Of a stretch of DNA of 64,000 nucleotides, positions 23,920-57,723 are shown piece after piece; the first letter of the stretch is position 1, and every line of letters starts with the position of its first letter. Source of the DNA: a virus. The notes under the pieces were generated by a model. It made no database searches. It was not told the origin of the DNA and worked only from the letters and a program-made list of their open reading frames with translations. The stretch spans positions 1 to 64,000 of IMG/VR virus record IMGVR_UViG_3300020171_000018; one strand, 5' to 3'. The position numbers and the translations under genes are program-made.

Positions 23920-23921
23920 GG

Positions 23922-28394: not shown

Positions 28395-28677
28395 TAGTGG
28401 CTTCCTGCAACAGGTCTAGCAGTTCGACTTTATGGGCTTTCTCGTTCTTGATGCCCCCCTCAAACATCAGAACATTCGCGTCGCACTGGTCAATCGCTGC
28501 CCTCAATGCCTTCGGGTCATACCGAGTCTTGCGGGGGAGGGACATTTTGACGCTCAACTGGCCCGCCCTCGCAAGCTCCATTACATGGTTCCAGCACAGC
28601 GGGAGGTTGTCCTCCCGCCGTGTGACCACAGCATCCTCGTGACACCCGTTCTGTCCGCAAGCACCTAAGTTCTTCAT
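28387..28677 (-). CDS. Small protein with Cys/His cluster
   Basis: 96 residues; ATG overlaps the end of the 830-residue fibre gene (ATGA). CGQNGCHEDA and LCWNHV could bind zinc, followed by a helical segment. Function unknown; tightly coupled to the fibre gene. Confidence 0.6.
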   Translation of the reverse strand: MKNLGACGQNGCHEDAVVTRREDNLPLCWNHVMELARAGQLSVKMSLPRKTRYDPKALRAAIDQCDANVLMFEGGIKNEKAHKVELLDLLQEATSG

Positions 28678-31166: not shown

Positions 31167-31181
31167 GTCGTCCTCCTCATG

Positions 31182-32918: not shown

Positions 32919-33121
32919 GGATAAGCCTCGTCAAGTGCGGCCTGTAGCTCTGCCTCAGTCAGTGTATCATCCCACGGACCATTGTTCTTGACACCTCTCT
33001 CAATAACACAGTGCCCCTTCACGCACATGACACCAAAGCGGGCAATGTTCACCTTGAGCACCCACACTATCTCCTTGTCCAGTGAGCATCGTCCATAGAC
33101 CGCGACATCGCTTACTAGCAT
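32915..33121 (-). CDS. Small unknown protein
   Basis: 68 residues, GAGGGTGGC before ATG, ATGA overlap with the next fibre gene. KVNIARFGVMCVKGHCVI and an acidic helical end. Function unknown. Confidence 0.55.
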   Translation of the reverse strand: MLVSDVAVYGRCSLDKEIVWVLKVNIARFGVMCVKGHCVIERGVKNNGPWDDTLTEAELQAALDEAYP

Positions 33122-33122
33122 A

Positions 33123-33635
33123 TTAAGCCACCCTCTTCCGCCAGAGCTGGTAGGTGTATGTCCTGTTCACACCTGCCATTTGCTGTAGCGTGAGCTTGAG
33201 GCCATACTTGGCAGGTTTGGTCGTAATGAATAGAACGAACAGGGTTTGAGCATCCAAGTAGGTCTCCTCCGCATACTTGAGATAGGTTGTAGGACCCGTC
33301 ACGAGGCTCATGTACTGGCGGATGATTAGCGTGTCGCCAGCCTGCATTGGACTCAGGCCAACATAGCCCTCTAAGTACCTGCTGGGGTTGCCTGCCGTCT
33401 CGTCTAGGATGATGTTCTGCTCAAGGCCGTCTGCGACGATGGTTCCCTCGATGGCGGCGTCGAAAGCTTCTATCCTATCTATGCGGGCCTTTCTGGCACC
33501 CGTACCAGCCTCGAAGGTCGCGTCCTCACCCAAGAGGTCCGTCCTGGGTTGACCGGTAAGAGCGGTCAGCGCCCTAGTCGCGTGTCCCCATATCTCACCT
33601 ACGCTTGCGCCTCCTCTAGCCGGAAAGTCAGGCAT
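33123..33635 (-). CDS. Virion-module beta protein, paralogue family
   Basis: 170 residues, GAGGGGTAAGCC before ATG. Pattern LEGYVGLSPMQAGDTLIIRQ and YAEETYLDAQ, then KYGLKLTLQQMAG, shared with 33646-34002 and with the partial gene at 1-126. These look like copies of one structural protein. Role unknown. Confidence 0.65.
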   Translation of the reverse strand: MPDFPARGGASVGEIWGHATRALTALTGQPRTDLLGEDATFEAGTGARKARIDRIEAFDAAIEGTIVADGLEQNIILDETAGNPSRYLEGYVGLSPMQAGDTLIIRQYMSLVTGPTTYLKYAEETYLDAQTLFVLFITTKPAKYGLKLTLQQMAGVNRTYTYQLWRKRVA

Positions 33636-33645
33636 GGCTTACCCC

Positions 33646-34002
33646 TCACATCTCGCTGAAGAACTCGTAATCTACATCAACATCCGGCCCTGCCACCGTC
33701 CGAACCGTGACCTTTAGCCCATAGGTATCCGGGCGCCCCTCGATAAAGACCACCGGGCTGGGCAGGGGTGCCGTATAGGTCTCCTGATGGTACTGTTGCC
33801 AAGCGCCCCCTGGCCTTACTTTCACGTAGAGCGCCACAACAACGGAGCCGCCCGGTGCCAACTTTGACAGGTCTACGTAGCCCGATAGTTTGTGGGGGAC
33901 GCCCCCAGATGCCTCAACGAGTGGGGACTCTGCATTGCTGCACAGAACGCTCCCAGAGCCCAACTCGTAAAGTCCCCGCACCCTAACCGTAGTGATTCCC
34001 AT
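33646..34002 (-). CDS. Virion-module beta protein, paralogue
   Basis: 118 residues from ATG 34002; a longer frame would overlap the upstream gene. LSGYVDLSKLAPGGSVVVAL, YHQETYTAPL and TYGLKVTVRTVAG align with 33123-33635. Function unknown. Confidence 0.65.
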   Translation of the reverse strand: MGITTVRVRGLYELGSGSVLCSNAESPLVEASGGVPHKLSGYVDLSKLAPGGSVVVALYVKVRPGGAWQQYHQETYTAPLPSPVVFIEGRPDTYGLKVTVRTVAGPDVDVDYEFFSEM

Positions 34003-34006
34003 GATT

Positions 34007-34573
34007 CTACCTTCGCCATCCTTCTTGCCCGGGGATGGCCGTTGCGTCCCCCTGCTCGATGGGGGTCTTTCCTTCAATGACGCTCAATCGAATAGCCGCC
34101 GTAGCCCCAGCCACCGCCGTTTGGAAGAACAACCTGTAGATAATCGGGTAGCGAAGGTCCACTCCGTAGCTCTCAGTTGGCAGTACGAAGTGGGCGTACA
34201 TCAGAGCGTCCTGATTATTTATAGCCACACCTACATTGTTGGGCCCGTCGTTTATCACATTGAATGAGATGCAGGGTCTGGGCAACTCGAACCGAGTCAC
34301 GGCGAAGCCTATGGTGCGCGAGTACCCCTTACTCCCCGTTGGAATCTTGCTCTCTTCCAACCTACGCAATCGGGCAAGCTGAGCGGCAGAGGCGGCCTGC
34401 ACAAGAAACGACATCACATCAGGCCGCATCCGGGCCTCATCCCCACTCAGCACCTCTGACCCCTGCAACCCCTGAGGAGTGGCAAGCGCCGACTCCTTCA
34501 GCAAGCGGGCCAAGTCTGTTCTGTCTAGGTCTGTTCTGTCTTGGTTACTGGGGTTACTGGCGTTTTGCGTCAC
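34007..34573 (-). CDS. Unknown virion-module protein
   Basis: 188 residues. Polar start (Asn/Asp/Arg/Thr), helical middle (MSFLVQAASAAQLARLRRLE), then a beta domain with FNVINDGPNNVGVAINNQDA. Overlaps the upstream gene's end by 20 bases. No family recognised. Confidence 0.6.
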   Translation of the reverse strand: MTQNASNPSNQDRTDLDRTDLARLLKESALATPQGLQGSEVLSGDEARMRPDVMSFLVQAASAAQLARLRRLEESKIPTGSKGYSRTIGFAVTRFELPRPCISFNVINDGPNNVGVAINNQDALMYAHFVLPTESYGVDLRYPIIYRLFFQTAVAGATAAIRLSVIEGKTPIEQGDATAIPGQEGWRR

Positions 34574-34838
34574 GGTGTATCTCCACCTCGGTTGGCAGCA
34601 GCGTCACGGGGTCCCACCGAATCTTCCAGACTTCCTTGTTGGTGTACGTGGCAGGGGCAGCAATAGGGGCAGCAACAGGAGCGCTAATGCTGTTGTTGGG
34701 GTTGCGAGAACGCAGCCATACCACTAACCCTATGGCAGCAACTAATCCCACGGCCAGCCACAGGCCAGTGTTGTCACGGTGCTCTTTACGGTTCTCTCCG
34801 CTCTCTCTGCGGGCCAGCCTTCTTGACTTAGTCGCCAC
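34554..34838 (-). CDS. Single-pass membrane protein with RNP motif
   Basis: 94 residues from GTG 34838, which has GGGAGGGGGC at good distance. A basic start, one membrane helix (GLWLAVGLVAAIGLVVWL) and directly after it RSRNPNN, the Arg-Asn-Pro motif that recurs in neighbouring products. Soluble end. Confidence 0.6.
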   Translation of the reverse strand: MATKSRRLARRESGENRKEHRDNTGLWLAVGLVAAIGLVVWLRSRNPNNSISAPVAAPIAAPATYTNKEVWKIRWDPVTLLPTEVEIHRDAKRQ

Positions 34839-34860
34839 GATTAGCCCCCTCCCACTCCTG

Positions 34861-35442
34861 TTACGGCCCCCCAATGGTAGCTAGGGGAGCAACCGTCTCA
34901 GGAGTCAACTTCCCGCCTGGTACGGTAGTCTCCATCCCATACACCCGCCCTTGAATCCAAGTCCTAGCCATAGCGTGATCCAACTCCCCGTCGTTGTCCA
35001 AGTCGTAGTAGGCTATGTCGGCGGGGAGACCCGCTTGACGGGCAAGACTGGCAGCCAGGATCGCCGTATCATCACAGTCTCTCCATTTTGGCACCTGTCC
35101 CTGGGCCAGCATAGAAGCGAACTCATCAGGACTCGTGATGCTCTCCATGCCAACTGGGTCATCAGTGTACCCCACCGTGTCCGATATGTAGGTCTGGATG
35201 GCCTGGGCCGCCTGAGGGGTGCCGGGGTTGGCGCCTGCTTGGGACAGCACCGAGCGGGCAAGGTGGCTCACGGACTCGCTCTGCTCCCCACGGTGCAGGA
35301 ACTCCTGAGAGGCTTGCATGACCTGATTGGCGGAGTCGGGGCTGATTGGGAACTGGACTACCTCGCCAATGCTGCTGCCGATACCTGGCCGCCCCTTGAC
35401 CCCAGTAGACCCCAATCCTGACCCTTGGCTCAGTCTCAGCAC
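34861..35442 (-). CDS. Transglutaminase-like cysteine protease fold protein
   Basis: 193 residues. WRDCDDTAILAASLARQAGL holds the nucleophile-type Cys123, LDHAMARTWI the His156, and an acidic residue follows at Glu171 (YGMETTVPG). This Cys-His-Asp/Glu order over about 50 residues is the transglutaminase-like/cysteine-protease pattern, common in phage structural modules. It could process virion proteins or crosslink them. Confidence 0.7.
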   Translation of the reverse strand: MLRLSQGSGLGSTGVKGRPGIGSSIGEVVQFPISPDSANQVMQASQEFLHRGEQSESVSHLARSVLSQAGANPGTPQAAQAIQTYISDTVGYTDDPVGMESITSPDEFASMLAQGQVPKWRDCDDTAILAASLARQAGLPADIAYYDLDNDGELDHAMARTWIQGRVYGMETTVPGGKLTPETVAPLATIGGP

Positions 35443-35464
35443 TGCTACCCCCTCTCCCCGTATC

Positions 35465-35806
35465 TCACCCGTATCTTAGCACCAACGGGGGTGAGAATCG
35501 GAGGTTGTTCTTACCCGCTTTGCCTCGCAACACCTCAATTGTACCACTGCCCTCTAGGAAAGCCTCTTGTAATACACGGCCATAGAGGTCATCACCGGGG
35601 AGCACCCGCAACTCTCCAACCGATTTCCCACCAAGCAGCTCATCCAGTGACCAGACCGCCACGGCTCCACTATTGGGGAACACCACGGCGAGTTTTCGGT
35701 CGTGGGGCATTCCTCTGGACTCGTCTACGAACTCCACCAGTTGAAACCCAGTACCCCCCACGCCGTTACCGTGGTAGGCCACCTCATGCACCTTGATGCG
35801 CCCCAC
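35465..35806 (-). CDS. Unknown virion-module protein
   Basis: 113 residues, GTG start with AAAGGGGG. Beta-rich (FQLVEFVDESRGMP, then KLAVVFPNSGAVAVWSLDEL). Function unknown. Confidence 0.55.
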   Translation of the reverse strand: MGRIKVHEVAYHGNGVGGTGFQLVEFVDESRGMPHDRKLAVVFPNSGAVAVWSLDELLGGKSVGELRVLPGDDLYGRVLQEAFLEGSGTIEVLRGKAGKNNLRFSPPLVLRYG

Positions 35807-35819
35807 TGCGCCCCCTTTC

Positions 35820-36137
35820 TCACTTCAATAGCCTGTTGACGACTTCCACTACCAAGCCGCCCAGGGCCACCGCTCCTGCCCAGGGGCTGAACTTGACTAT
35901 GATGTTGCGGGGCCTAGTCCTCTTCTGGTGGTTCTGCTCAAGGGTCTGCACCACCAAGTTGGGGATGGTCTGCTCCAAGCTTCTCACCATCCACCAGGCC
36001 GAGGAGAGTTGGATTGCAGTGGGAGTCGCGGACATGCCTCTCGCGGCCACCTCGTCCAGCCCTACCTCCACCAGCCTGTCCATCTGTGAGAGGTCCCTAG
36101 TTGGCGTCATATCGGTCTCCTCTTGGTGAGAGTCCAT
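35820..36137 (-). CDS. Unknown protein with C-terminal hydrophobic helix
   Basis: 105 residues from ATG 36137 (GAGGTGGGG upstream); a frame from 36170 is less likely. Helical, ending in PWAGAVALGGLVVEVVNRLL, probably membrane-associated. Function unknown. Confidence 0.55.
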   Translation of the reverse strand: MDSHQEETDMTPTRDLSQMDRLVEVGLDEVAARGMSATPTAIQLSSAWWMVRSLEQTIPNLVVQTLEQNHQKRTRPRNIIVKFSPWAGAVALGGLVVEVVNRLLK

Positions 36138-36177
36138 TGTGCCCCACCTCTTTGCGCACAGAATACCCAATCGTATT

Positions 36178-36195
36178 CTCTCCGTACAGGGAGAG
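36178..36195. terminator. Hairpin in the leader of 36137
   Basis: CTCTCC (36178-36183) and GGAGAG (36190-36195) with a six-base loop. It lies between the 850-residue gene and the next. No T-run; it may slow rather than end transcription. Confidence 0.35.
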
Positions 36196-36238
36196 GTGGC
36201 GCATCAGTACAAAAGAGCGGGTCACACAAGTACCTACT

Positions 36239-38791
36239 TTACGCCCTTGTGGTCTTGTGGTAACTTGCGTCTCCCTTGAACCCCGTAGTGCCCGTCTTTC
36301 GGTACTCCCCAGACTTCTCGTTGTACCGATACCAGTGGTACAAGCCGCTTTTACGCACGCCAATGAGGCCACTGGGGTCACTATACCACCCCTTCGCCTT
36401 ATCTAGTTCCTTGACGCCTGTGGCACCTGGGTTGCGGAAGATGATGCTCCCGTTGACGTTGTAGAGCTGCGGGGCGGTCTTGAGCTCACCCCTGTTGGCG
36501 GCGTCCAGCTCTTGGAACGGGATAGAGTCGGGGTTCTTCTTCCCGCCCACCCCCTTTGCCCCTTTCACCCCTCGCACCCCCCTAGCCCCCCTGATGTACT
36601 CATGGAGCGCCCCAGGGTACGCCTCAGGAGCAGCCCTAGACTCAGTGGGCTTGGTCTCAACCGTCCCCTCGGTGTGGACAAGGCCCCCTGGGGTGGTTGT
36701 GGACTCCAGCACGGACTCAGGAGCGGGGGCATCGGGGAAGTCGGTGATGGAGCTGGCGTCCATCTCCCCAAAAGTGGGGTTGCGCTTGCCCTTGTGGTAG
36801 TGCGGCCCAATGTACCGCTTGCTGCCCTTAGTAAGTTGGTGCCCAATTGTGGCTACGAGGCCCTCTCCTTTTGCATCGTGGTAGTGCCTAGGGCCATGAT
36901 GGGTCACTTTCCCGCGCCGAGAAGCATGGGTGTGCCAGTAGCCCTCTGGGTTTTGGGGGTTCTGCAGGGGCGGCTCAATCACCCTCCCTTTATCCCCAAG
37001 AGCTGGCGTCACCAGCGTCGCCAGCTCCTTCTGAGAGGTGTACTCCTCAGGGCCGGGCTGGATTGACACCCCAGCCCCGCAGCCACTGCACCGCCCGACT
37101 CCTACTGACCCAGACTCGAATGGTTGACCACAGGACGGGCATTTTAGCTCTGAAACGATTGACATTGGATTCTCCTTCCTTCTACCATATGTTCCCCCAG
37201 AGTGCCCATACCCGCCACGCTGCTTGTGAGGGGATGGGGCATTGGGGGGTATAAACGAGATTATAGGGGACTCCAAGGCCATCTCAAGGTTCAGGTATGC
37301 CACTGTGCTACTCCAGCCAGAGTGGGCCTTGGCGAACTCCTTGGCCGCCCAGACCATTCGAGCGTGCCTGCTATCATCTTTACCCGCAAGGGCAGCTCTG
37401 GCAAGGTGATAGAGGTTCACAAGCTCAGCCTGTTCCCTTTTGTTGGCATATCTACTGGGATTCTTGCTCATATCAGCCTTCTCTCTAACAGGGCCTAGCC
37501 ACTCCTGACCCTTGCCCTTCTTCAACCCCAACTCTTTCAGGTACGCAAGGTCTCCTGCTGTGATGCTACCTTTGCCCTTGAAAGTCAACACATACTGCAC
37601 GGACGCCACGGGGCTTGGCCCAAACCACCCCGTAGGCCCAATGACTAGCTGCCCCTGAGCGTCCCACCTATTCGCTCTGAGCGTCCACCCAGGGGACATA
37701 CGAGACAGGTCTGGCATATTGGTGGGATTCATGGTGAACAGTGGCAGCATCGCACCCCTCCAGGCACTTGGAACCTTCGGCCTCTTCAGCTTCTCCCCGG
37801 TATCGCTCTTATAGTAGTGCTCCGCCATCCTGTCGTAGTACGTTTCCAGCTTCTTCAGCTTCTTCCCGTACTTCCGGCGTAGCTCTTCCTGCTCTTTGTA
37901 GACGGGGAACTGGGCATGACCCATCTCACTCCACTCCAACATGCGCTTCGTCTTGAGCTGGACCTCAACGGGCAGGCCGTTCGACTCAACAAGCAGGTGG
38001 TAGGAGCGGTACAGGCCCTTGGGCTGGGTTATGTAGTCCTCCTCTTCTATCACATTGAACTCGCCACGAATCTTTTTCAGTCCAGCGTACAGGGAGTCCA
38101 AGGTGGAGAATACGACGCGGACGCCCGCTATGTCGGTTAGTGAGGATAGCTCAGTACCCCGCCTAGTCAGCTTCTCCATGATGCTCTCCACGGTCTTTAG
38201 CCGGGATGAGACCTTGCCGGGGAACATGCGCTCCAACTCTGTAGAGACCTGAGATAGGGACTCCCGGTAGCGTGCCTGGTACGCCTCGATGCTTGTGTCA
38301 CTGAGGCCATTGGATCCCTCTGGGTTCCCCTTGGGCATCGTCTCAGAGGTGGTCAGCCACATTTTGTGACCCAATCCCAGCTTCTTAATCTCCTTCTGGG
38401 CGTCCCTTAGGCTACCAGCGAACACTAGCTTGCCATCGGAGACTCTGAATATCTTGTAGCTGGTGCTCTTGGGTATGGGGTTCCCGCTTCCTTCCTTGGT
38501 CTTCTCCAACAGTCCCAGAAACGCCTCGACCACTTCAGCCTCTGCCGCCATCTTGGTAGTGGCCCTTCTCGACCCCAGTTTCCTAGAGCCATCCCAGATA
38601 GCCCACTCCCAATCGTTGTGACCGAGCCTCTTCACCGCCGCCGAGTATTCCTGGAGGCCAAGGTAGGTCTCCCTGTCAGGGTGCAGGGCCTCCCATTCGT
38701 CATGCCCCACAGAGCGCCAGGCTACCTTGTCCCGCATCTCCTGGAGGGCGAGCCGGCGCCTCATCAGCTTGAACTGTGTAGTCAAGGGCAT
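36239..38791 (-). CDS. Multidomain protein with RelA/SpoT synthetase-like domain
   Basis: 850 residues. Residues about 175-330 match the RelA/SpoT nucleotidyltransferase: TDIAGVRVVF (Asp220), DYITQPKGLYRSYH (Lys258, Tyr261, His265) and VEVQLKTKRMLEWSEMGHA (Glu276, His292). These are the positions that make (p)ppGpp-type alarmones in known enzymes, so activity is possible. No hydrolase domain is seen. A zinc ribbon (CPSCGQPF, then CSGCGAG) comes near 540-565, then a His-rich part. Motifs of type GNP, KNP or RNP recur at domain borders (GNPIP, KNPSRY, KRNPTF, KKNPDS, FRNPGA). It lies in the presumed virion module and may be cut into pieces or carried in the particle. Confidence 0.7.
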   Translation of the reverse strand: MPLTTQFKLMRRRLALQEMRDKVAWRSVGHDEWEALHPDRETYLGLQEYSAAVKRLGHNDWEWAIWDGSRKLGSRRATTKMAAEAEVVEAFLGLLEKTKEGSGNPIPKSTSYKIFRVSDGKLVFAGSLRDAQKEIKKLGLGHKMWLTTSETMPKGNPEGSNGLSDTSIEAYQARYRESLSQVSTELERMFPGKVSSRLKTVESIMEKLTRRGTELSSLTDIAGVRVVFSTLDSLYAGLKKIRGEFNVIEEEDYITQPKGLYRSYHLLVESNGLPVEVQLKTKRMLEWSEMGHAQFPVYKEQEELRRKYGKKLKKLETYYDRMAEHYYKSDTGEKLKRPKVPSAWRGAMLPLFTMNPTNMPDLSRMSPGWTLRANRWDAQGQLVIGPTGWFGPSPVASVQYVLTFKGKGSITAGDLAYLKELGLKKGKGQEWLGPVREKADMSKNPSRYANKREQAELVNLYHLARAALAGKDDSRHARMVWAAKEFAKAHSGWSSTVAYLNLEMALESPIISFIPPNAPSPHKQRGGYGHSGGTYGRRKENPMSIVSELKCPSCGQPFESGSVGVGRCSGCGAGVSIQPGPEEYTSQKELATLVTPALGDKGRVIEPPLQNPQNPEGYWHTHASRRGKVTHHGPRHYHDAKGEGLVATIGHQLTKGSKRYIGPHYHKGKRNPTFGEMDASSITDFPDAPAPESVLESTTTPGGLVHTEGTVETKPTESRAAPEAYPGALHEYIRGARGVRGVKGAKGVGGKKNPDSIPFQELDAANRGELKTAPQLYNVNGSIIFRNPGATGVKELDKAKGWYSDPSGLIGVRKSGLYHWYRYNEKSGEYRKTGTTGFKGDASYHKTTRA

Positions 38792-38793
38792 AC

Positions 38794-39204
38794 CTACCCC
38801 CCGCCCCCAAGAGTGCCCAGTAGTTCCATCACCTTTGCTCTCCCTCTCCCACCTTGATTCCTGTGCTCCCTCACAATCAACCAGTATAGCTGTCTCCCAA
38901 ACCTGTCCTTGGCTGGCCGGGAGTAGAACCCCTTGCTGGGTCTGTGCGGATACCCCAGACAGTGCGTTAACTCGTGAACCAGCCTCTTTCTGCGTTCATG
39001 CACCCTTTGCTTGGCCCACTCAGGAGTCACCACAATCAGCTTCTTGGCCGGGACCGCCCAGATGTCTGGGTACTTCCCCCTGTACGTTGGCTCCTCTTGC
39101 AAATACACCCGCTCCACCCCCATGATGGGGCACGCAACCTTCTCAAGCCAGTCCATGTCGGCCTGGTGAATCAGGACCGCTCCTCTGGCCAACTTGGCGG
39201 GCAT
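38794..39204 (-). CDS. Small metzincin-type zinc protease candidate
   Basis: 136 residues. LVHELTHCLGYPHRP gives HExxHxxGxxH exactly at residues 77-87, the zinc-binding signature of metzincins, preceded by an all-helical stretch. The usual Met-turn after it is not obvious. The family is normally larger, so this is a minimal or divergent member. Its position between proteins rich in Asn-Pro motifs makes a maturation protease a reasonable hypothesis. Confidence 0.6.
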   Translation of the reverse strand: MPAKLARGAVLIHQADMDWLEKVACPIMGVERVYLQEEPTYRGKYPDIWAVPAKKLIVVTPEWAKQRVHERRKRLVHELTHCLGYPHRPSKGFYSRPAKDRFGRQLYWLIVREHRNQGGRGRAKVMELLGTLGGGG

Positions 39205-39417
39205 CTACACTCTCGCCCTCTTAGCCCGCCGTGCCTCATTTATCAAGATAATCCAAGAGTCATTCGGGAGCAGGCCAGGCCCCTCAGCAATCATTAGCTC
39301 TCCCCTTGAGTTGAAATGCAACTTGACGGGCACGAGAGGCATCAGGGTGCCGTGCCGCTTCTCCAAGGCGCGGAGCTCCTGTTTCGAGAAGGAGACCATA
39401 AACGAGGGGTTACGCAA
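39205..39417 (-). CDS. Small protein starting MRNP
   Basis: 70 residues. TTG start supported by AGGAGGTGCATC at ideal distance. Begins MRNPSFMVSFSKQELRALEK, so the Asn-Pro motif of the neighbours stands at the very start. Stop abuts the next ATG. Function unknown. Confidence 0.55.
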   Translation of the reverse strand: MRNPSFMVSFSKQELRALEKRHGTLMPLVPVKLHFNSRGELMIAEGPGLLPNDSWIILINEARRAKRARV

Positions 39418-39427
39418 GATGCACCTC

Positions 39428-41602
39428 CTAGCTCACCATCAGAGTGGCACCACAGTCACACTGGTACACCCCGGGGTCAGGGTTCCCGATTGACCCCTGG
39501 CATGAGGGGCAGCTCAGAGATGGGTTCCTTCCGGGATTGCTCCTTCTGGGATTACCTGGGTTAGCCTCCACCGTCTTTGCCCCTGCTACCAGACTACTCA
39601 CCACCTCTTTACTCGGTGCCGCCACAAACAGCGGCATGATAACGATGTCCTGCATGACGCTCCCTGAGAACGTCCCGGGGCTGCTCTCGGTAGTCAGACC
39701 CACTGATATGGTCTCGGTCTCCTTGAACGTCCTGACAACGGTGTCACTGAGGTAGCTTGCGTCAAAGGCTATGTACCGTCTCTTGTCTTGCCCCGTCCAA
39801 TCTCCATTGAGAGACGCTGGCACCAGAGCGGCCTTGGGGTCAGAGTACGTGAATACCAGCAGCCTATCTCCGGCTATCCCCACTGTGCTCCAAGGCATGA
39901 ACCCCACCTGTTTGGACTCCTTGTACCTACCAGTAATCAGGCCCCCAGTTTCCGCAAGGGCCGCCACCAGTGCCCCAGCCCTCACATCGAAGCCCCACTC
40001 CTGCCCGGAAGGGATTAGTTGGGGGTAGTTGGGGAACTTGCCTAGTATCCCCTTGAACGATTGCTCCTTATCCCCAACGGCCACAACCAGACCGGGGACA
40101 TCGCTGACCTCGGTGCTGATAATGCTGCCTGCCCTGTTCTTGTTCACAAAGGTCTCATAGCTGGATACTGGAACGAAGTCAATCAGGGCCTTGCCACCCT
40201 TGAGTGCCTTTGCAGGTATGCCAGACGCCCACTTTGCCAGCTCCTTAGCGGGGATGTTGGCCGTCCAATCACCCCTCCCCGCAGTCTCTAGGGTCAGTGA
40301 TGCGTGGGCCAGCCGGAACCCGTCCGCCGCTGCCAGGTCTAGGAGCTCCCCCTGCTTCTGGATGTTGATGCAGGTAAGAGTGGGCCTTGCTCTGTCGGTA
40401 GCAGCGTACAGGGTTATGCGCTTGATTACGTCCACGAGCAGGTTGGCACTGATTGTTGAGGGGTCACCAGCGGGCTTGCCAATCCTAGACTTGGCTACCT
40501 CCTCAGCCTCCTGAGCAGCTTTGGCCTCAGCAGCCTCCTTCTGCTTCTTGCGCTCGGCGGCCTCCTTGACCTCTTGAATGGCCTGTTTCGCCAAGGGGTG
40601 GAGAGGCTTGACCTCATCCTCTGGGCCCCATCTACCGCCGCTGAACAGGTCGGAAGGCCCACCCAGCACGCCTACCGTGTCATCGCTTTGAGAGACGGGC
40701 CCTACCCCGACCTCCAGACTGTTTGCCTCCTCTAGGACCGGGCTGGGTGGGGGCAATTTTACCAGAACGAACTTCCCCTGCACATTTTGGAACTCCTCAC
40801 CGCCTTGGGCCCCCGCAAACATAATGGGGAGAGAGTGCTTTGCTAGACTCTCTTCATGTTCCAGCCAGCTCCTCCAGTGCGGGTCAGCCTGCAACTCCTC
40901 CTTTGCTACAGCCCTAATGTAAGCTACATGGTGGGCTCCGTCAGCCCCCAACCAAGAGGCCATCTCATACCACTGGCCCAGTTTGAGCCCATATTTGTCG
41001 GCCTGCTTTTGGCGTTCCCCCTTGACCCTAGCTAGGGCCTGCCGTGATGCCCACTGGTAGCCGAATAAGGACCGATTGAACTTGCTTGTCTTGACCGCCT
41101 CACCCAGCCCCACAATCCGGCTAATGGTCCGTCCCACCTTGTTGTTGCCTACAGGCTTGGGAGGGTGCATGGTGTCCATATTGGCCCACCGCACGGCCTC
41201 CCAAGCAGACGGCTCACTATGAACCCCTCGCTCTCTGGTAAGAATCTCTCGTAGCCTCTCGGTGCTAGGCTTGCCCCCGTACCTAGTGGACATTATCACG
41301 TACCCCTCAGGGCCCTTCACTAGGTAGTAGTCCAGCCGTGGGTCCCCATAGCGCCCAGTAGTGCCGGGTTTGGAGGCGTATAGGACGGGCGTCTCGGTTA
41401 TCAGCCCGTCCAAGGCAGCAATAGCCTGTTGCTGGGTGGCCTCAGCATCGGCAACAGCCTTGTCCAGCTTAGCAGCCTCACGGTCATACTCCCCTTGGTC
41501 TGGGGTAGAGGGGGGCATAGTGGTCTCCCCACGGTGGGAAGCCTCTACAGCCCAAGGTTCGCCAGCCTGTACATGCTCCTCAAAGGGCGGATTGCGGGAC
41601 AT
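39428..41602 (-). CDS. Protein with sliding-clamp-like domain and zinc-ribbon end
   Basis: 724 residues from ATG 41602 (AGGAGAGTGAGC upstream; GTG 41608 is too close). N-terminus SRNPPF, unknown first half, charged coiled coil (about 345-375). Residues about 385-660 follow the bacterial DNA polymerase III beta clamp: LLDLAAADGFRLAHASL, NIPAKELAKW, KFPNYPQLIPSG, then YIAFDASYLSDTVVRTF, ETISVGLTTE and VIMPLF. Clamps encircle DNA and tether polymerases. The end has GNPRRSNPGRNPSLSCPSCQ and CDCGATLMVS, a zinc ribbon nearly identical in style to the ends of 36239 (internal) and 41622. Confidence 0.6.
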   Translation of the reverse strand: MSRNPPFEEHVQAGEPWAVEASHRGETTMPPSTPDQGEYDREAAKLDKAVADAEATQQQAIAALDGLITETPVLYASKPGTTGRYGDPRLDYYLVKGPEGYVIMSTRYGGKPSTERLREILTRERGVHSEPSAWEAVRWANMDTMHPPKPVGNNKVGRTISRIVGLGEAVKTSKFNRSLFGYQWASRQALARVKGERQKQADKYGLKLGQWYEMASWLGADGAHHVAYIRAVAKEELQADPHWRSWLEHEESLAKHSLPIMFAGAQGGEEFQNVQGKFVLVKLPPPSPVLEEANSLEVGVGPVSQSDDTVGVLGGPSDLFSGGRWGPEDEVKPLHPLAKQAIQEVKEAAERKKQKEAAEAKAAQEAEEVAKSRIGKPAGDPSTISANLLVDVIKRITLYAATDRARPTLTCINIQKQGELLDLAAADGFRLAHASLTLETAGRGDWTANIPAKELAKWASGIPAKALKGGKALIDFVPVSSYETFVNKNRAGSIISTEVSDVPGLVVAVGDKEQSFKGILGKFPNYPQLIPSGQEWGFDVRAGALVAALAETGGLITGRYKESKQVGFMPWSTVGIAGDRLLVFTYSDPKAALVPASLNGDWTGQDKRRYIAFDASYLSDTVVRTFKETETISVGLTTESSPGTFSGSVMQDIVIMPLFVAAPSKEVVSSLVAGAKTVEANPGNPRRSNPGRNPSLSCPSCQGSIGNPDPGVYQCDCGATLMVS

Positions 41603-41621
41603 GCTCACTCTCCTAGGCAGC

Positions 41622-43007
41622 CTAACTCACTTGGAACTCAGCGCCACACCCGTCGCACCGATACGTGCCAGCGCCCAGGCTGCCCACCCCCTGGTTGCAG
41701 CCTGGGCAGGAAAGGGAGTCTGGGTTCCCTCTTGGTGTCCCTTCGTACTCTCGTATCAATCTGTCCTGAGTAGCGTTGTCGTACCCATGCCACACACCGG
41801 CGGTCACCTGAGCAATCCGCCTCTTGCCGAACTTGGGATACTCAGCCTTGATTCTGGGCAGCATCATGGCCCACCACTTGGCGGGGGGTCTGGTGGACTT
41901 CCCAGGCGCTGAGCGGGGATTCAGGGAAGGGGCACTCCCGCCTTCCCCCTCAACATACCTTTGGGCTACCTTGCGCGGCAGCGTCTCACGCTCTATCTTG
42001 GGTAGGCGCTCACTTACTAGCCGTTGTAGCTCATCCCGACCCTTCTCATTGGTAGGTCTGCCTACCCACATCTGCTCGACGCTGCCCTTGAATGGTAGCT
42101 CTATTTGGCGCACGTCTGTGAGCCCATATTGGTCTACGAGCCATTGGTCAGGCCCCTCTTTTGTACCAAGATAGCGCCAACCCCTAACCGCCAACTCGGC
42201 AATTAGCACATGGCGCTCACGGCCAGACCCAAACATCCACAGATTGCCCTCCAGCTTCTTGGTAACTGAGGTAATGCCCCGAAGGGAAGACGGCAGCGGC
42301 TTTCCACGAGGGTTAGTATGGTCAAGGCCAACCTGTTCAGGTCTTAGCCCTGCCTTGGCATAGGCAAAGCATGTCTTGTGGTAGGTGTGCAGCTTCCCCA
42401 CCTTCACACCTCCAGCATAGATGGGGCGCGTGCAGAAGAAGCAGGTAGCCTTGCCCCTCTCCTGCTTTCGGGAGCGCCAGGTCCGCTTGGAGACGGCTGA
42501 GCGTTCGGCGTGAGAGAGGGGGTTCATGCAGCACCCTGGGTTCTTTCCACCACAACACCCAGCCCTGACCCCTGGGTTAGCTACTGGTTGGTAGGCGTGC
42601 TGCTCCACCCACTCCATAGCCTTGGCTCTAGCCTTAAACCAGCGCACCTTTGCCTTGCTGGGGGCTATCCAAGCTTTCGCCCTCCACGGCTTACCCTCGT
42701 GACCCTGGGGGGCATCGGGGAAATAGGCCACACTCCCGTATTCCAGACCGGAGAGGTCACCCCAGAACATGATGCCCTTCTCCTGTCCGGCCCATTGGAG
42801 CTTACTGGGGTTGGACACGGGTTGCGTTACATGCTGCACTACCCCATCCCCGTCCCGCACAATTACGGGCCTCTCCACGGGCCCCTCTCCAACTCCCCTG
42901 ACAACCCCCTTGGTAATGGACTGAGCGCCGGACTGGGTAGTCTCAGGCCCAGGGTGCTCTACCCTGACTGTGGCTGTTGTTTCATTCAGACTGTTCGGAT
43001 TAGCCAT
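41622..43007 (-). CDS. Asn-Pro-rich multidomain protein with zinc-ribbon end
   Basis: 461 residues from ATG 43007. Starts MANPNSLN; further NP sites at VSNPSK, VANPGV, KNPGCCMNP, TNPRGK, LNPRSA, RGNPDS. An internal CFFCTRPIY...HKTC zinc finger and the C-terminal SLSCPGCNQG...CDGCGAEFQVS ribbon. The region around IKAEYPKFGKRRIAQVTAGV resembles small DNA-binding phage domains. No enzyme recognised. Confidence 0.6.
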   Translation of the reverse strand: MANPNSLNETTATVRVEHPGPETTQSGAQSITKGVVRGVGEGPVERPVIVRDGDGVVQHVTQPVSNPSKLQWAGQEKGIMFWGDLSGLEYGSVAYFPDAPQGHEGKPWRAKAWIAPSKAKVRWFKARAKAMEWVEQHAYQPVANPGVRAGCCGGKNPGCCMNPLSHAERSAVSKRTWRSRKQERGKATCFFCTRPIYAGGVKVGKLHTYHKTCFAYAKAGLRPEQVGLDHTNPRGKPLPSSLRGITSVTKKLEGNLWMFGSGRERHVLIAELAVRGWRYLGTKEGPDQWLVDQYGLTDVRQIELPFKGSVEQMWVGRPTNEKGRDELQRLVSERLPKIERETLPRKVAQRYVEGEGGSAPSLNPRSAPGKSTRPPAKWWAMMLPRIKAEYPKFGKRRIAQVTAGVWHGYDNATQDRLIREYEGTPRGNPDSLSCPGCNQGVGSLGAGTYRCDGCGAEFQVS

Positions 43008-43182
43008 GTCCACGCTCCTTTAGTCCAACTGTTCTAAACACAATCACTCGGTCACACCTCTCACAGTACCGTACCGACCCAAGGCACCTGGCCCACTTCT
43101 TAGCCCTCTCAGCCCCCTTCACTTGGTACACCACTATCTCTCCCCAACGATGATTGCAGGCTGGCCCAGACCCCCCCTTCAC
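43000..43182 (-). CDS. Small zinc-ribbon protein
   Basis: 60 residues, GTG overlapping the upstream stop (GTGA). ACNHRWGEIV, then CERCDRVIVF. Function unknown. Confidence 0.55.
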   Translation of the reverse strand: MKGGSGPACNHRWGEIVVYQVKGAERAKKWARCLGSVRYCERCDRVIVFRTVGLKERGHG

Positions 43183-43844
43183 CCAACCACGCCCCTAGAA
43201 GTCAACTGAGGGTATCGGTCGCCCCCCTTCACCTTGGCTATGAACAGCCCCTTGCCGTGCTCGTCTGTGAATACCCAATACTCGGTGCCGACCTTCCCAC
43301 TTCCCAAGTCGCCCACCTCATGCTCCCAAAGGCTGCCAGCCCGTTTGGAGGGCTTCCAAGATTCGTAAACAAAGGAGCGAAGCCTCCCAATTACGATGCC
43401 CCTCTTGGGGTAGTCCTCTATCTCCACCTCTACCAGCTCTTGGGGCTCGGTCTCGTGGAACTCCCGGTACTTCTTGACCAGCTCAGGGGGGAGATTGGAT
43501 ACATCCATTTGGGCCTGAGGGTTCTTCTGCACGTTGTCTCGTGGGTTCCCTTGTACCCCCCTTGGCAGTATCTCTAGCAGGTTGATTTCCGTTCGGTAGT
43601 ACCGTCTCTTGGGGGTTATGACCTCTACTTGACCCGTGAAGGGAATCCACACTCCCTCCCCAGTGCTAAGGCCATGCTCTCCCTTGTTGGTGACTGTGAA
43701 TATCCTCGATGGGGGCATAGTGACCACTGGGTACTGCCCCTCCAACAGGGCAAAGGAGACGTTCTTGACCCTATCCCCCACTCTGACTTTACTAGCTGGA
43801 ACCAACTTCCCACTCACTATGACACCCCTCAAAATACCAGCCAT
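43179..43844 (-). CDS. Unknown protein with Asn-Pro motifs
   Basis: 221 residues. A beta-rich first half (LVPASKVRVGDRVKNVSFAL), then QGNPRDNVQKNPQAQMD as a likely linker, then a second beta-rich half (VEIEDYPKRGIVIGRLRSFV). Weak ribosome site. Fits the Asn-Pro-linked module. Confidence 0.55.
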   Translation of the reverse strand: MAGILRGVIVSGKLVPASKVRVGDRVKNVSFALLEGQYPVVTMPPSRIFTVTNKGEHGLSTGEGVWIPFTGQVEVITPKRRYYRTEINLLEILPRGVQGNPRDNVQKNPQAQMDVSNLPPELVKKYREFHETEPQELVEVEIEDYPKRGIVIGRLRSFVYESWKPSKRAGSLWEHEVGDLGSGKVGTEYWVFTDEHGKGLFIAKVKGGDRYPQLTSRGVVG

Positions 43845-43923
43845 CTTCCCAGTGAAATGCCATCCAAACGCCTCCTCATTGGGTTATAGCCCCCTTCTGG
43901 CGCTCCTGACGCTCCCAAGCCCT

Positions 43924-44472
43924 TTACGCCCACTTGGCATCGAACCCGCTCAGAGCCGCCCCTGACACCACTCTCAGCACTCCCACATCAGTGTCAATCA
44001 GCGTGAACCCTGAGTCATCCAAGAACGCCGCCGCGCCGTAGAGGGTTGTCAACGCACTATCCACCACCCAGATGTAGGCGTCGAAGGTGCGCCCGGCCCA
44101 GGCCGACTCTATGAGCAGCGCCACCGGGGTAGAGAGGGTCTGCTGCACTACGCCGACCGTACCCCTGCTTGGCGTGGTGAATGCGGACACGGTGTACTTC
44201 CCGTCGGCCAGGTTGGCGCCGTCGTTGAAGTCACCTGAGCCCTTCTTCAGCCCGATGAGCACCCAGAACAAGGTGGCCGGGCCCACCCAGTTGTACTGCA
44301 CGTCCGTGACTCTCAGGTACTCACCCGGATTCTTGTTCAACGGCAGGGAGCCGGGATTGAGCGCCCCGAGGCCCCGCCCGACCATCCCCACTCGAAACCC
44401 GCTCATCCTGCTCACGTGGTTGCTCATCCGGTGCTTGCTCACTGTTCCCTCGTTGCTCATCCTGATGGCCAT
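43924..44472 (-). CDS. Unknown virion-module protein
   Basis: 182 residues, AGGAGGCTGAC before ATG. Basic start, LPLNKNPGEYLRVTDV (another KNP), then beta strands (YNWVGPATLFWVLIGLKKGS). No family recognised. Confidence 0.6.
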   Translation of the reverse strand: MAIRMSNEGTVSKHRMSNHVSRMSGFRVGMVGRGLGALNPGSLPLNKNPGEYLRVTDVQYNWVGPATLFWVLIGLKKGSGDFNDGANLADGKYTVSAFTTPSRGTVGVVQQTLSTPVALLIESAWAGRTFDAYIWVVDSALTTLYGAAAFLDDSGFTLIDTDVGVLRVVSGAALSGFDAKWA

Positions 44473-44512
44473 GTCAGCCTCCTGCCAGCTCTGTTAGCTC
44501 CACCCGACTTTG

Positions 44513-45223
44513 TTAGCTCCACTTCACTGCGATGTTTGATAGGACCCCTTCTGGTGGCGGCGGTGGCGGCGGGGGAGGAGGAGGGGTAGTGCCCTTGCCC
44601 CCCAGCATCAACAGCGCACCAACCCCTACTGCCGCTATACCCAACATCCCGCCCCCGCCCCCCTTTTCTGGGTTGCGTGGGTTGCGTGGGTTGCGCCGTA
44701 CACGGGGAACCACACCCTTCTTCGCCAGGGCCTGGTATGCGATGAACAGCCCCCCACCAATGAGAAGGAGCGGCCCCAGACCAGCGGCTATTCCTCCCCC
44801 GATGTCTTTCCATGAAGAGCGCGCCAGCTTGAACGTCAACGCCCCAAACAGGGCTAGTATTCCGATGGCAATAGCGATTACAATGATGGCTGGCCAGGCC
44901 CCTATGCCCCCGCTTCTGGACCCCACTCCGTTCTCCGTCACAACCCCGTTCCGGACCGTGCCGCTGGACTCCCTCTCAGGCGCCCCCTCCATGTCCACCG
45001 TCACCCGATACCCGTCGAATATCGGGGCCGTGTCCTGCTCAATGACGTAGTGGAGGAGCTTCCCCCGGAGTCCCGGAGTCCACCCGGTTCCGGCGTTTAT
45101 AGCGGCTGCAATGGTGCCAGAGAGCCCCGGAGTCCCAGAGAACGCCATCACCAACTGACTGGAGGGGCCGTGGTAGCTGTCACCCCGGGGCGTAGTCACC
45201 TCTCTTGATATAGCGTAGGCCAT
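44513..45223 (-). CDS. Multi-pass membrane protein with NP repeat and poly-proline tail
   Basis: 236 residues, GGGAGGTAATC before ATG. Beta-rich start, three hydrophobic segments (IIVIAIAIGILALFGAL, AAGLGPLLLIGGGLFIAY, MLGIAAVGVGALLML). Between the last two is RVRRNPRNPRNPEKGGGG. After them comes a run of eleven prolines and EGVLSNIAVKWS. The end parallels the small protein at 8041-8205. Confidence 0.65.
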   Translation of the reverse strand: MAYAISREVTTPRGDSYHGPSSQLVMAFSGTPGLSGTIAAAINAGTGWTPGLRGKLLHYVIEQDTAPIFDGYRVTVDMEGAPERESSGTVRNGVVTENGVGSRSGGIGAWPAIIVIAIAIGILALFGALTFKLARSSWKDIGGGIAAGLGPLLLIGGGLFIAYQALAKKGVVPRVRRNPRNPRNPEKGGGGGMLGIAAVGVGALLMLGGKGTTPPPPPPPPPPPEGVLSNIAVKWS

Positions 45224-45225
45224 GA

Positions 45226-45456
45226 TTACCTCCCTTGACCCGGTTGACCGCGCCTTGGTTGACCGCGCCCCCGGGTGTCATATGGGGCGTTTATGTATCG
45301 CTCGACCTCCACGGCGTCAACATACAGGATTCCCCGTACCTTGACCCCGTGGAGGTCGTTGGCCTTTATCATGCGATAGATGGTGATGAGGGGCTTTCCA
45401 AGCTCCTGAGATACCCTTTTGACCGTCAAGAGAACTAGGGAGCCGTCATCCGCCAC
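45226..45456 (-). CDS. Excisionase-type helix-turn-helix protein
   Basis: 76 residues, GTG start. LTVKRVSQELGKPLITIYRM, then GVKVRGILYVDAVEVERYI, is the winged helix of the excisionase/MerR-like DNA-binding family. It is the first gene behind the promoter at 45504-45533, so it may regulate the virion operon or act with the integrase, which is about 30 kb away. Confidence 0.7.
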   Translation of the reverse strand: MADDGSLVLLTVKRVSQELGKPLITIYRMIKANDLHGVKVRGILYVDAVEVERYINAPYDTRGRGQPRRGQPGQGR

Positions 45457-45503
45457 GTCAACACCACCAATTTCTACAAGTTTTTCAGCTTTTGATACCT
45501 AGA

Positions 45504-45533
45504 ATACTACCCCCTTTATCACGTTGTTGTCAA
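45504..45533 (-). promoter_or_regulatory. Promoter of the leftward virion module
   Basis: Minus strand: TTGACA at 45533-45528, 18-base spacer ending in AAAGGGGG, TAGTAT at 45509-45504. The AAAGGGGGT before the -10 box is shared with the promoter at 23100. It overlaps the stop of 45530-45832. Confidence 0.65.
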
Positions 45534-45832
45534 GTGGCCCTCTTAGATGAAGCCAACAGCTCCTTGTTGGTCGGCCCCATACCATCCCCGGTTCGCCGAA
45601 GTGCGTCAAACAACGTTTCAAGCTCGTCCCTGCATCTGGTACACAAGTTGAAGCCTGTACGTGGAGGCTCCGTGCCGGGAGGGTTTGCGCAATGATGCTG
45701 GAACCTCGTATCTACCCAGGCGCGGTGCCTATCGCAGGTATCCTTCTTGCACATCGCACAGGCGGTACTGGCCTCGTCTGGGAGAGTTGGTTCACACAGG
45801 TCACAGATATAGATTACCTTGGTTGTCTTCAT
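45530..45832 (-). CDS. Cys-rich zinc-binding protein
   Basis: 100 residues from ATG 45832 with AAGGAGG. CDLCEPT, CAMCKKDTCDRH, HHC and CTRCRD give at least two zinc sites. A similar C..CxxDxCxxH pattern is in 59555-59848. Function unknown. Confidence 0.6.
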   Translation of the reverse strand: MKTTKVIYICDLCEPTLPDEASTACAMCKKDTCDRHRAWVDTRFQHHCANPPGTEPPRTGFNLCTRCRDELETLFDALRRTGDGMGPTNKELLASSKRAT

Positions 45833-45929
45833 CAGGAGAAACCTCCTTCGTTGCTCAATGATTCGCATACAGCAACCCCTCCTTACCACACTGCGCCATA
45901 AAGCCCCCGGATTTACCCGTGGGGAGTAG

Positions 45930-46496
45930 TCACCAAGCCCCAGGCAGCTTCCTAAAGGCATTCAACGCCCTGATTCGCATGTTGGGGCCATTGGTCACTG
46001 CTACTACAGCCACCCTCTCCATTTCTGGGGGCGTGATAAGCACCAACCAGTGGAGCACTATCAGCAACCCCTCAGGCCGAGTGACTCTAGCGGCCTCTCT
46101 TGCCATGATATTGGGTCTGGGGTACGGATACCCCCAGTAGGCGGCCCGACTCTCGTCATATGGCGGGTCGCATATCACTATTCCAAAGAGGCTGTCAGCA
46201 AAGGGCAGGTGGCAGGCATCCGCTAGAACAGTAGGTCTAACAGCCGGGTTCATGTCCACTGACATCCCCTCTTTGACTAGCCCAGAGCAGACGAACAGGA
46301 CAGGCTCCTCCCAGCCTATGCGCTCTTTGATGCGCTCAAGAAGCAGGCCAGGAAAGCGTTGGGCATACTTGCCCGTGGCCCTGGGGAGCGCCCACACCTC
46401 AGTCTTACCTATCTGGTGGTACTGTCCAGAGCCCCCAGCCCAGCGATTAGGAGTAGGAGTGGGTTGAGTCACAGCGACGGAAGGCCGCTCACTCAC
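45930..46496 (-). CDS. Class I SAM-dependent methyltransferase, DPPY type
   Basis: 188 residues from GTG 46496, which overlaps the upstream stop. VLADACHLPFADSLFGIVIC is the SAM-binding acidic strand region and DPPYDESRAA the catalytic motif of N6-adenine or N4-cytosine methyltransferases. Short compared with restriction-type enzymes. Probably modifies phage DNA. Confidence 0.7.
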   Translation of the reverse strand: MSERPSVAVTQPTPTPNRWAGGSGQYHQIGKTEVWALPRATGKYAQRFPGLLLERIKERIGWEEPVLFVCSGLVKEGMSVDMNPAVRPTVLADACHLPFADSLFGIVICDPPYDESRAAYWGYPYPRPNIMAREAARVTRPEGLLIVLHWLVLITPPEMERVAVVAVTNGPNMRIRALNAFRKLPGAW

Positions 46497-46782
46497 GTCG
46501 TACCAACTTCCATCTTGGGAACCACCCCTGACTTCGCATCTTGGCCAGGGCAAACACCAGCATGTTTATGGCATCCAAGGCATCATCCTTTGCCTTGTAG
46601 GGGGGAGTCTCTACCAGTAGATGGGACTTTGGCACCTCTACCAAGCTCCCCCTCTTGGCCTTGTACGCAGCCTGCCCCATTAGCTCCTCCACCGAAAAGT
46701 GTTTCCACAGGTCTGCATAGGGGGAGTCCTTGTGGATCTGGAAGGCCACAGAGATTATGGAGTCGTACTCGTCTCTGGTCAT
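46489..46782 (-). CDS. Unknown protein
   Basis: 97 residues from ATG 46782 (ATGA overlap with the deaminase gene). LWKHFSVEELMGQAAYKAKR and KDDALDAINMLVFALAKMRS; probably helical. Function unknown. Confidence 0.55.
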   Translation of the reverse strand: MTRDEYDSIISVAFQIHKDSPYADLWKHFSVEELMGQAAYKAKRGSLVEVPKSHLLVETPPYKAKDDALDAINMLVFALAKMRSQGWFPRWKLVRRE

Positions 46783-47252
46783 GGCCTGCCCTCTCGCGGA
46801 GACACAAGGGCCTTGGGGAGCTGCAACCCAACCTGCCCCTGATACCGTCCCCGGTACAGCGGCTCGTCCACTGCCAGCTTCAGGTAGGAGATGGACCACA
46901 CCTTCATGCACGGCTCTATCCTGATGCCGTAGCAGGAGCCGTTGAATACCTCCATCGTGAGGGTGCCCTTGAACCCAGGGTCCGCCACTGTTGGAGGGGC
47001 CATCAACCCCAGCCTTGCCCAGGTGGAGCGGAGGCAGATAAGGCCAATGACTCCCGCAGGCACCTCAACAGTCTCTATAGTGGAGGCAAGAATCCGTCTC
47101 ATGGGTGGGATGACCATAGGCAGGGCGATGGGCTCCCAGAACATCCTATCTATGGACTCTTGATTGGTAGCATCTATGAACAGGGCTGGCAAGATTCGAT
47201 TATCCTGGGGGTGCCTCTCGAACACTACCCTGTCAGCAATTGTCAGATCCAT
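46779..47252 (-). CDS. dCTP deaminase / dUTPase family protein
   Basis: 157 residues. LRSTWARLGLMAPPTVADPG and FKGTLTMEVFN match the trimeric dUTPase/dCTP deaminase fold: Ser76-Arg80, the nucleotide-binding Asp91 and the strand with Glu101. Such enzymes lower dUTP and make dUMP for thymidylate. Whether it deaminates or hydrolyses cannot be decided by eye. It fits a genome that also encodes a uracil-DNA glycosylase fused to its polymerase. Confidence 0.75.
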   Translation of the reverse strand: MDLTIADRVVFERHPQDNRILPALFIDATNQESIDRMFWEPIALPMVIPPMRRILASTIETVEVPAGVIGLICLRSTWARLGLMAPPTVADPGFKGTLTMEVFNGSCYGIRIEPCMKVWSISYLKLAVDEPLYRGRYQGQVGLQLPKALVSPREGRP

Positions 47253-47256
47253 GTTT

Positions 47257-47598
47257 CTACCCCCCTTTCCGTTCGACTATCAACCGAGTCCCAGGCACTC
47301 CAACCTTTGTGGCCTGCTCGATGATCCTCGGACTCACCCCGAGGGTCAGGAGTGCCTGCTTATCCAAGGTTGCCCGGCCCTGAGTCGGTGCCAGAGATAC
47401 CTCGTATCCACCGGCGTACCAGGCCCTGGGCAGCTCCAACTCAACTGCGGCATCCAGTAGGGCCTGCTTGAGCCTGTCCTCCTCTTCTTTCAGGGCCGCA
47501 AGAGCCTCATGGGTGTTGAAGTAGTCTTGGGCCAGAACGGACATTCTCTGGGCGTCTGAACCAGCGAGAACTAGTGGCTCTACCTTAGTCTCCGCCAC
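47257..47598 (-). CDS. Unknown coiled-coil protein
   Basis: 113 residues from GTG 47598 (best spacing from AGGAG). A coiled coil (about 25-55) then RATLDKQALLTLGVSPRIIE and TKVGVPGTRLIVER, a pattern of small phage proteins near replication genes. Function unknown. Confidence 0.6.
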   Translation of the reverse strand: MAETKVEPLVLAGSDAQRMSVLAQDYFNTHEALAALKEEEDRLKQALLDAAVELELPRAWYAGGYEVSLAPTQGRATLDKQALLTLGVSPRIIEQATKVGVPGTRLIVERKGG

Positions 47599-47613
47599 TG
47601 ACACACCTCCTAC

Positions 47614-47754
47614 TCACTTGCCAAGAATCCGGGCCCGGGCATCCCTGAACTGCTTCCATATCCCCTCTCTGGCCTCCTTCCATGTCTTCTCTATCGCCCT
47701 CAGCGCCTCATCCCGCTCCCGCCGCGCTCTCTGTAGCTCACTCTTGATGCTCAT
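47614..47754 (-). CDS. 46-residue coiled-coil protein
   Basis: AAAGGAGGGTAGCC before ATG. Highly charged helix MSIKSELQRARRERDEALRA and a basic end. No family recognised. Confidence 0.6.
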   Translation of the reverse strand: MSIKSELQRARRERDEALRAIEKTWKEAREGIWKQFRDARARILGK

Positions 47755-47756
47755 GG

Positions 47757-48188
47757 CTACCCTCCTTTCGTTTCCTGCTTTGATCTGGTTCTACGGGGCC
47801 TTCTTGTCACCGTGGTCCTCTCCGTGACGTTCTCAGCCATGTAGTGTGCGGGGCAATCGTGCCCAAACAGCCCACACGACCTGTTCGTTTGCTGATGTAC
47901 TGACCCACCAGGCATCTTCATGCCAGGCAGGGGATAGACTTCCACAAGCCCCCCGTATGGGCAGAATCCCGCCTTGAGGCAGGGGTGCTCAACGTCCTGG
48001 GAGACTACCCTCTCACAGTTGACCCAGAGACCCTTGTGGAAGTCCCAGAGGGCACGCTTCTGTGTTTCGGGGTCTGGAATACCCACCCTGAGTGCGTTAG
48101 ACACGGCCTCATCGTAGGCTGCGTAGGCTCTGTAAACATCGTCGCTTTCGCCCTCGGGGTTCTTGGAACCTTTGCTGTTGCTACTCAT
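47757..48188 (-). CDS. Cys-rich protein with KNP start
   Basis: 143 residues from ATG 48188 (AGAGGAG upstream). Early SKGSKNPEGES, then CLKAGFCPYGG and CGLFGHDCPAHY, a four-Cys site with His, and a basic end. Function unknown; directly downstream of the polymerase gene. Confidence 0.6.
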   Translation of the reverse strand: MSSNSKGSKNPEGESDDVYRAYAAYDEAVSNALRVGIPDPETQKRALWDFHKGLWVNCERVVSQDVEHPCLKAGFCPYGGLVEVYPLPGMKMPGGSVHQQTNRSCGLFGHDCPAHYMAENVTERTTVTRRPRRTRSKQETKGG

Positions 48189-54536: not shown

Positions 54537-54542
54537 ACTCCC

Positions 54543-54830: not shown

Positions 54831-54881
54831 TATTGTCTCCCTGTTGTTTGTCCAGTTCCCCGCTCAGTGTCTTGGCCCGAC

Positions 54882-56073: not shown

Positions 56074-56091
56074 GACTAACCTCCTTGGTCT

Positions 56092-56838: not shown

Positions 56839-56868
56839 ATCAAGCCTTTCACCGAACTGGAGCTGGGT

Positions 56869-57666: not shown

Positions 57667-57723
57667 GTTGGGCTGTTCTCCTTTCGTGACCCGTTTCGAC
57701 TTCTACTTTAGCTACCATGTTAG

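Follow-up and report, generated by a model that had tools for sequence, protein, structure and literature searches.

Why does one dipeptide, Asn-Pro (NP), recur through the products of a single block of genes in a virus, and what might it do there? The source record, IMG/VR IMGVR_UViG_3300020171_000018, comprises 85,802 bases, of which bases 1-64000 form the window, that is, the whole 64,000-nucleotide stretch presented here. Genes were predicted with a codon-usage caller over the first 80,000 bases of the record, and the NP module, as counted, spans 33.1-48.2 kb and holds 24 predicted proteins (4,837 aa). A preliminary description of this DNA had reported RNP, KNP or GNP in nine named minus-strand products, and had quoted the strings RNPRNPRNP, MRNPSF, SRNPPF and MANPNS; all nine products carry such a motif, and every one of the strings is present. 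The genes at 45226-47754, inside the interval then described, contain just two NP and lack [RKG]NP altogether.

The impression that the motif is common here and rare elsewhere is borne out by counting. NP occurs 39 times in the module against 8.9 ± 3.0 in composition-preserving shuffles (maximum 17 in 200), and [RKG]NP 22 times against 2.1 (maximum 6), while over the remainder of the first 80 kb the figures are 45 against 27.8 for NP and 3 against 2.9 for [RK]NP. Asn is followed by Pro in 29% of cases in the module and in 8% elsewhere. NP is by a wide margin the most enriched dipeptide of the module (z 10.2; the runner-up reaches 3.4), and this does not depend on any one gene product, z staying at 8.0 or above when each protein is left out in turn and at 4.4 when the three big proteins are removed together. 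As a reference, 217 chunks of 9-15 kb were drawn from other viral loci, a set biased towards the motif since many of its members had been retrieved with RNP patterns. Their best NP z was 3.8, compared with 10.8 for the module, and only three contained any dipeptide at z of at least 9. The residue before the Asn is basic in 15 of the 39 sites, and small or polar residues predominate at the two positions that follow the Pro.

Such an excess might stem from a skewed composition, from a DNA element present in repeats or from a GGGTT word with strand bias, and Pro is indeed a little more frequent in the module (6.5%) than outside it (5.4%). The shuffles, however, preserve composition, and the reversed dipeptide PN is flat (11 vs 9.1). 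The underlying word AAYCC occurs 39 times in frame 0 of the module but 4 and 9 times in the remaining two, and elsewhere its frames are even (29:23:28); the codons used at NP sites are mixed, with no preference, and none of the direct repeats in the region reaches a useful length or identity. An artefact of composition or DNA is thus refuted by the shuffle, PN, frame, codon and repeat tests, and is barely credible. Because the excess is confined to the coding frame, is written in mixed codons and is accompanied by no DNA repeat, we conclude that it is real and that NP is selected at the protein level.

The operon at 34.5-45.2 kb encodes multidomain proteins together with a few small proteins of membrane or beta type; the module proteins named below (by their left coordinate) all lie on the minus strand. 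Copies of NP range from 1 to 10 per protein. Ten are found in the 850-aa product of 36239..38791, at residues 104, 156, 355, 444, 541, 611, 614, 671, 753 and 787; its layout comprises N-terminal domains, a RelA_SpoT domain (residues ~165-345; Pfam E 1.4e-22), a zinc ribbon (551-573), a His-rich stretch (616-670) and a C-terminal beta domain. NP156 and NP355 bracket a RelA/SpoT unit of 199 aa. Its free-standing homologues, from a Nitrososphaera provirus and faecal phages, measure 210-234 aa, and the Nitrososphaera protein, the only one whose alignment covers the domain's C-terminal end, terminates near the same point as the unit. Residues 399-508 of 36239 are weakly matched by a DUF3560 protein (Pfam E 3.2e-27) encoded outside the module, at 23828-24712 on the plus strand.

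The 724-aa product of 39428..41602 begins MSRNPPF and carries a sliding clamp (DnaN) at residues 381-657 (Pfam DNA_pol3_beta_2 E 1.3e-9; PHROG 947; NCBIfam dnan), an NP cluster at 681-693 (ANPGNPRRSNPGRNP) and a C-terminal zinc ribbon. From residue 4 to 681, a stretch of 677 aa that includes the clamp, it has no NP, and a long charged linker free of NP joins two of its domains. The 461-aa product of 41622..43007 begins MANPNS and contains eight NP, spaced 63-131 aa apart save for the cluster CCGGKNPGCCMNP; searches of Pfam and PHROG gave no match to it, and its C-terminal zinc ribbon is paralogous to those of 39428 and 36239.

The remaining members are smaller. A 70-aa protein (39205..39417) begins MRNPSF, with GGAGG 6 nt upstream of its TTG start; a 221-aa protein (43179..43844) has GNP100 and KNP108 between its two halves; and a 182-aa protein (43924..44472) carries LNPGSLPLNKNPGEY close to the N-terminus, as do two others their SNP7 (188 aa, 34007..34573) and KNP10 (143 aa, 47757..48188). 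A 94-aa single-span membrane protein (34554..34838) has WLRSRNPNN past its hydrophobic segment, and a 236-aa membrane protein (44513..45223) has RRNPRNPRNPEKGGGGG followed directly by the last hydrophobic segment and a poly-Pro tail. The C-terminal part of the latter resembles a stand-alone protein encoded at 8041-8205 (blastp 41% over 51 aa, E 2e-10, partly low complexity), in which plain basic residues stand in place of RNPRNPRNP. Beyond the window, a 168-aa membrane protein (78362-78868 of the record, plus strand) bears GNPANPRRHRRHYRRNP at its start and is a further clear NP member.

NP sites cluster in stretches prone to disorder that lead into a module or separate two of them. Disorder propensity around NP exceeds that at other Asn residues (TOP-IDP, p 8e-5), and, as an inter-domain linker would require, the sites lie mostly outside annotated domains: two of the 39 fall inside an independently annotated domain against 6.2 expected, a weak test with a binomial P of 0.04, or 0.11 when conditioned on Asn positions. 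In an AlphaFold2 model of 36239, of low confidence and 61% coil overall, all ten NP are in coil. In 36239 and 41622 most NP-bounded segments measure 52-199 aa, and NP stands about 3-10 residues before each of the three paralogous zinc ribbons. Three genes start with it (MRNP in 39205, MSRNP in 39428, MANP in 41622), each with a GGAG-type ribosome-binding site 6-7 nt upstream. The ribbons that it precedes, the RelA/SpoT unit that it brackets and these gene starts together indicate that NP behaves chiefly as a module prefix and less as a general spacer. The preliminary description had placed NP at apparent domain borders, and most sites agree; the placement breaks down at GNP707, which is within the zinc ribbon of 39428, at ANP72, on the edge of a Transglut_core match, and along the 677 NP-free residues of 39428.

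The reading that we favour, with a probability of roughly 0.45, is that the operon encodes "polyvalent"-like multidomain proteins assembled from small modules and joined by an NP linker element peculiar to this lineage. The modules would be the alarmone-type RelA/SpoT nucleotide transferase, the sliding clamp, the three copies of one zinc ribbon and several domains of other kinds. NP, usually after a basic residue or Gly and before small or polar ones, would be the standard linker, its Asx-Pro turn closing one folded unit and opening the next between flexible flanks. As NP-prefixed modules were fused and duplicated the prefix would have been copied along with them, and their spread would also leave the same prefix at the very start of some genes. 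Such a role would need no cutting at NP. The NP-free linker of 39428 and GNP707 inside its ribbon count against this reading. Slow decoding of Asn-Pro at module borders might instead help co-translational folding; the placement of NP ahead of modules fits, but there is no codon preference, a pause at the N-terminus would precede any domain, and GP, SP and DP, like the other Pro pairs of this kind, are not enriched in the module, so that we regard pausing as very improbable.

That NP is used rather than any flexible sequence, and that it occurs in many unrelated proteins, some of them single-domain, and at extreme N-termini, is better explained by a recognised linear motif than by a mere linker. 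One such reading, doubtful but foremost among the alternatives, is that NP is a short motif bound by a single partner (the capsid interior, a membrane or a replication factory) and so gathers the proteins that bear it. This would account well for the N-terminal copies as for those between domains of unrelated proteins, and the membrane protein beyond the window, with GNPANPRRHRRHYRRNP, belongs to the same virus. The RelA/SpoT protein of the Nitrososphaera provirus adjoins portal and capsid genes, RelA/SpoT is also found fused to MuF (PMC5512222), and the internal proteins of T4 carry capsid targeting sequences some 10 residues long at their N-termini (PMC9026906). Against docking, copy number (1 to 10) and position vary, the flanks are loose, and the binding partner is hypothetical. 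An NPF/EH motif reading of the sites was rejected from their sequence contexts.

Proteolytic release would mean that a viral peptidase cleaves the long chains at NP or close by, liberating their domains either ahead of packaging or once the virus has entered; we hold this to be rather unlikely. The likeliest enzyme would be a 136-aa protein (38794..39204) with the zincin-type motif HELTHCLGYPH (HExxHxxGxxH) and no NP of its own, whose gene lies between the NP genes 39205 and 36239. A second candidate is a 193-aa transglutaminase-like protein of cysteine-protease fold (34861..35442; Pfam Transglut_core E 2e-6, above the cut-off), with Cys123 and His156 as candidate residues. Zincin-like peptidases have been proposed to process polyvalent proteins, and DdrB of P1 is cut before packaging (PMC5512222); short motifs suffice for phage proteases, as in T4 (L/I-X-E) and phiKZ (S/A-X-E) (PMC9026906); and a metallopeptidase that reads NP is known, PPEP-1, which recognises VNP↓PVP and whose gene is beside that of its substrate (PMC10413326). 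On the other side, the assignment of 38794 as a peptidase comes from the motif, Pfam, NCBIfam, PHROG and PDB having returned no match, and the AlphaFold2 models of 36239 and 38794 were too poor for fold searches. Where NP occupies residues 3-4, as in three of the proteins, a cut would free nothing, and clusters such as RNPRNPRNP would suffer several cuts. A scan of IMG/VR for HELTHxLG[YF]xH found five loci, whose neighbours lack a comparable [RKG]NP excess, and the PPEP-1 site has a PP that is missing here: NPP occurs in 2 of the 39 and PxP in neither, from which the Pro-Pro endopeptidase site xNP↓PxP is rejected. Ribosome skipping of the 2A type was likewise rejected (NPGP in 0 of 39 contexts). 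No assemblin- or S78-type prohead protease was matched in Pfam or PHROGs among the module proteins and the larger proteins searched, in a record that may be a fragment.

The preliminary description had taken NP for a common cleavage or sorting signal of virion proteins. This is not supported: no module gene could be linked to the virion, neither candidate protease is connected with NP, the flanks are loose, several sites are at extreme N-termini, and 8041 has no NP at the corresponding place. The plain basic residues that replace RNPRNPRNP in that protein argue against a strict signal, bearing in mind that the similarity is partly of low complexity. Its suggestion of a polyprotein-like system is kept in play by the zincin-motif gene among the NP genes. 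The broadest version, in which a single factor, either the HELTHCLGYPH peptidase or a docking protein, reads (R/K/G)NP in a dozen proteins and so has their chains cut or targeted, we think distinctly unlikely; if true, it would amount to a maturation and sorting system unlike that of the Glu-specific prohead proteases.

Relatives sharing the NP trait were sought in viral collections and in genome contigs, and none appeared among the matches listed, the single-protein scans being able to reach close relatives only. Searched one at a time, 36239, 39428 and the polymerase gave no relatives. RNPRNPRNP had 31 loci in IMG/VR among the matches listed, nearly all out of frame; those in frame were rejected as relatives, all belonging to one family of tape-measure-like proteins among the matches listed. 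A scan for a ribosome-binding site followed by MRNP yielded no NP-rich relative among the 120 matches listed from IMG/VR, and one for three spaced RNP had 28 of the 116 matches listed in frame, those inspected being tandem repeats or shadow ORFs. GYWHTH gave two loci in genome contigs, as many as expected by chance, and neither is an in-frame protein match. Virus Rctr197k, which tblastn weakly matched to 31182 within a run of large genes, was rejected because it is not NP-rich; two adjoining large proteins in it (L154:17482-21425) end in RNYxNP (ERNYSNP and DRNYANP), a C-terminal NP motif. A search with a polymerase alignment found 80 loci with the replication cassette, and the NP module in none of them.

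That cassette (53766-59307, minus strand) consists of an ERCC4-type nuclease, AAA_24, PD-(D/E)XK and a helicase adjoining polymerase A, and is common to several otherwise different IMG/VR contigs (L161, L171, L177, L184 and L195). Also on the minus strand are a protein strongly matching Tad4, the inhibitor of type I Thoeris anti-phage defence (52876-53511; Pfam E 9.6e-32), and a DNA methyltransferase (50836-52569) whose two matched halves are split by a long insertion (roughly residues 150-350). Paralogous pairs are seen at 28674-34002 (minus strand), namely the C-termini of 28674 and 31182, and 33123 with 33646. On the plus strand, Laminin_G-like and dockerin-like proteins (2784-4127 and 8256-9179) plausibly have a surface or adhesion role. 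Among the proteins searched in the 85.8-kb record, none was recognised as a terminase, portal, major capsid or tail protein. Further along it, a P-loop ATPase-like protein (70066-71676) and numerous small beta proteins (79.7-85.8 kb) suggest an unusual virion or an incomplete record.

A two-residue mark of module joints, shared by unrelated proteins of one virus, would offer a direct handle on how multidomain effectors are built, delivered or cut. Q-linkers are lineage-specific inter-domain linkers, in which a compositional element recurs at the module joints of unrelated proteins; NP resembles them in recurring at joints, and differs in its two-residue core of high specificity and in its presence at extreme N-termini. 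In T4 and phiKZ head maturation and capsid targeting, too, very short motifs steer the targeting and cutting of many virion proteins, but there the cuts follow Glu (L/I-X-E, S/A-X-E) and are made by an assemblin-type serine protease, none of which was found here among the proteins searched (PMC9026906). PPEP-1 offers the likeness of a metallopeptidase that reads an NP-containing site and is encoded beside its substrate; it differs in needing a Pro after NP (VNP↓PVP) and in being a secreted bacterial enzyme (PMC10413326). In architecture the parallel is with polyvalent proteins, where RelA/SpoT is among the domains, zincin-like peptidases outnumber every other domain, and processing and co-injection are proposed (Iyer et al. 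2017, PMC5512222). The passages of that account considered here describe no NP punctuation and do not use the word "linker". The module likewise combines unrelated domains within single chains of a mobile element, at least two in 36239 (RelA_SpoT and zinc ribbon) and in 39428 (clamp and zinc ribbon), with RelA/SpoT among them and a zincin-like motif nearby. It differs in its clamp and zinc-ribbon fusions and in that its candidate peptidase (HExxHxxGxxH) is a separate 136-aa gene product of no detectable homology. One small candidate peptidase and a delimited collection of NP sites make the zincin hypothesis for polyvalent proteins testable in this virus.
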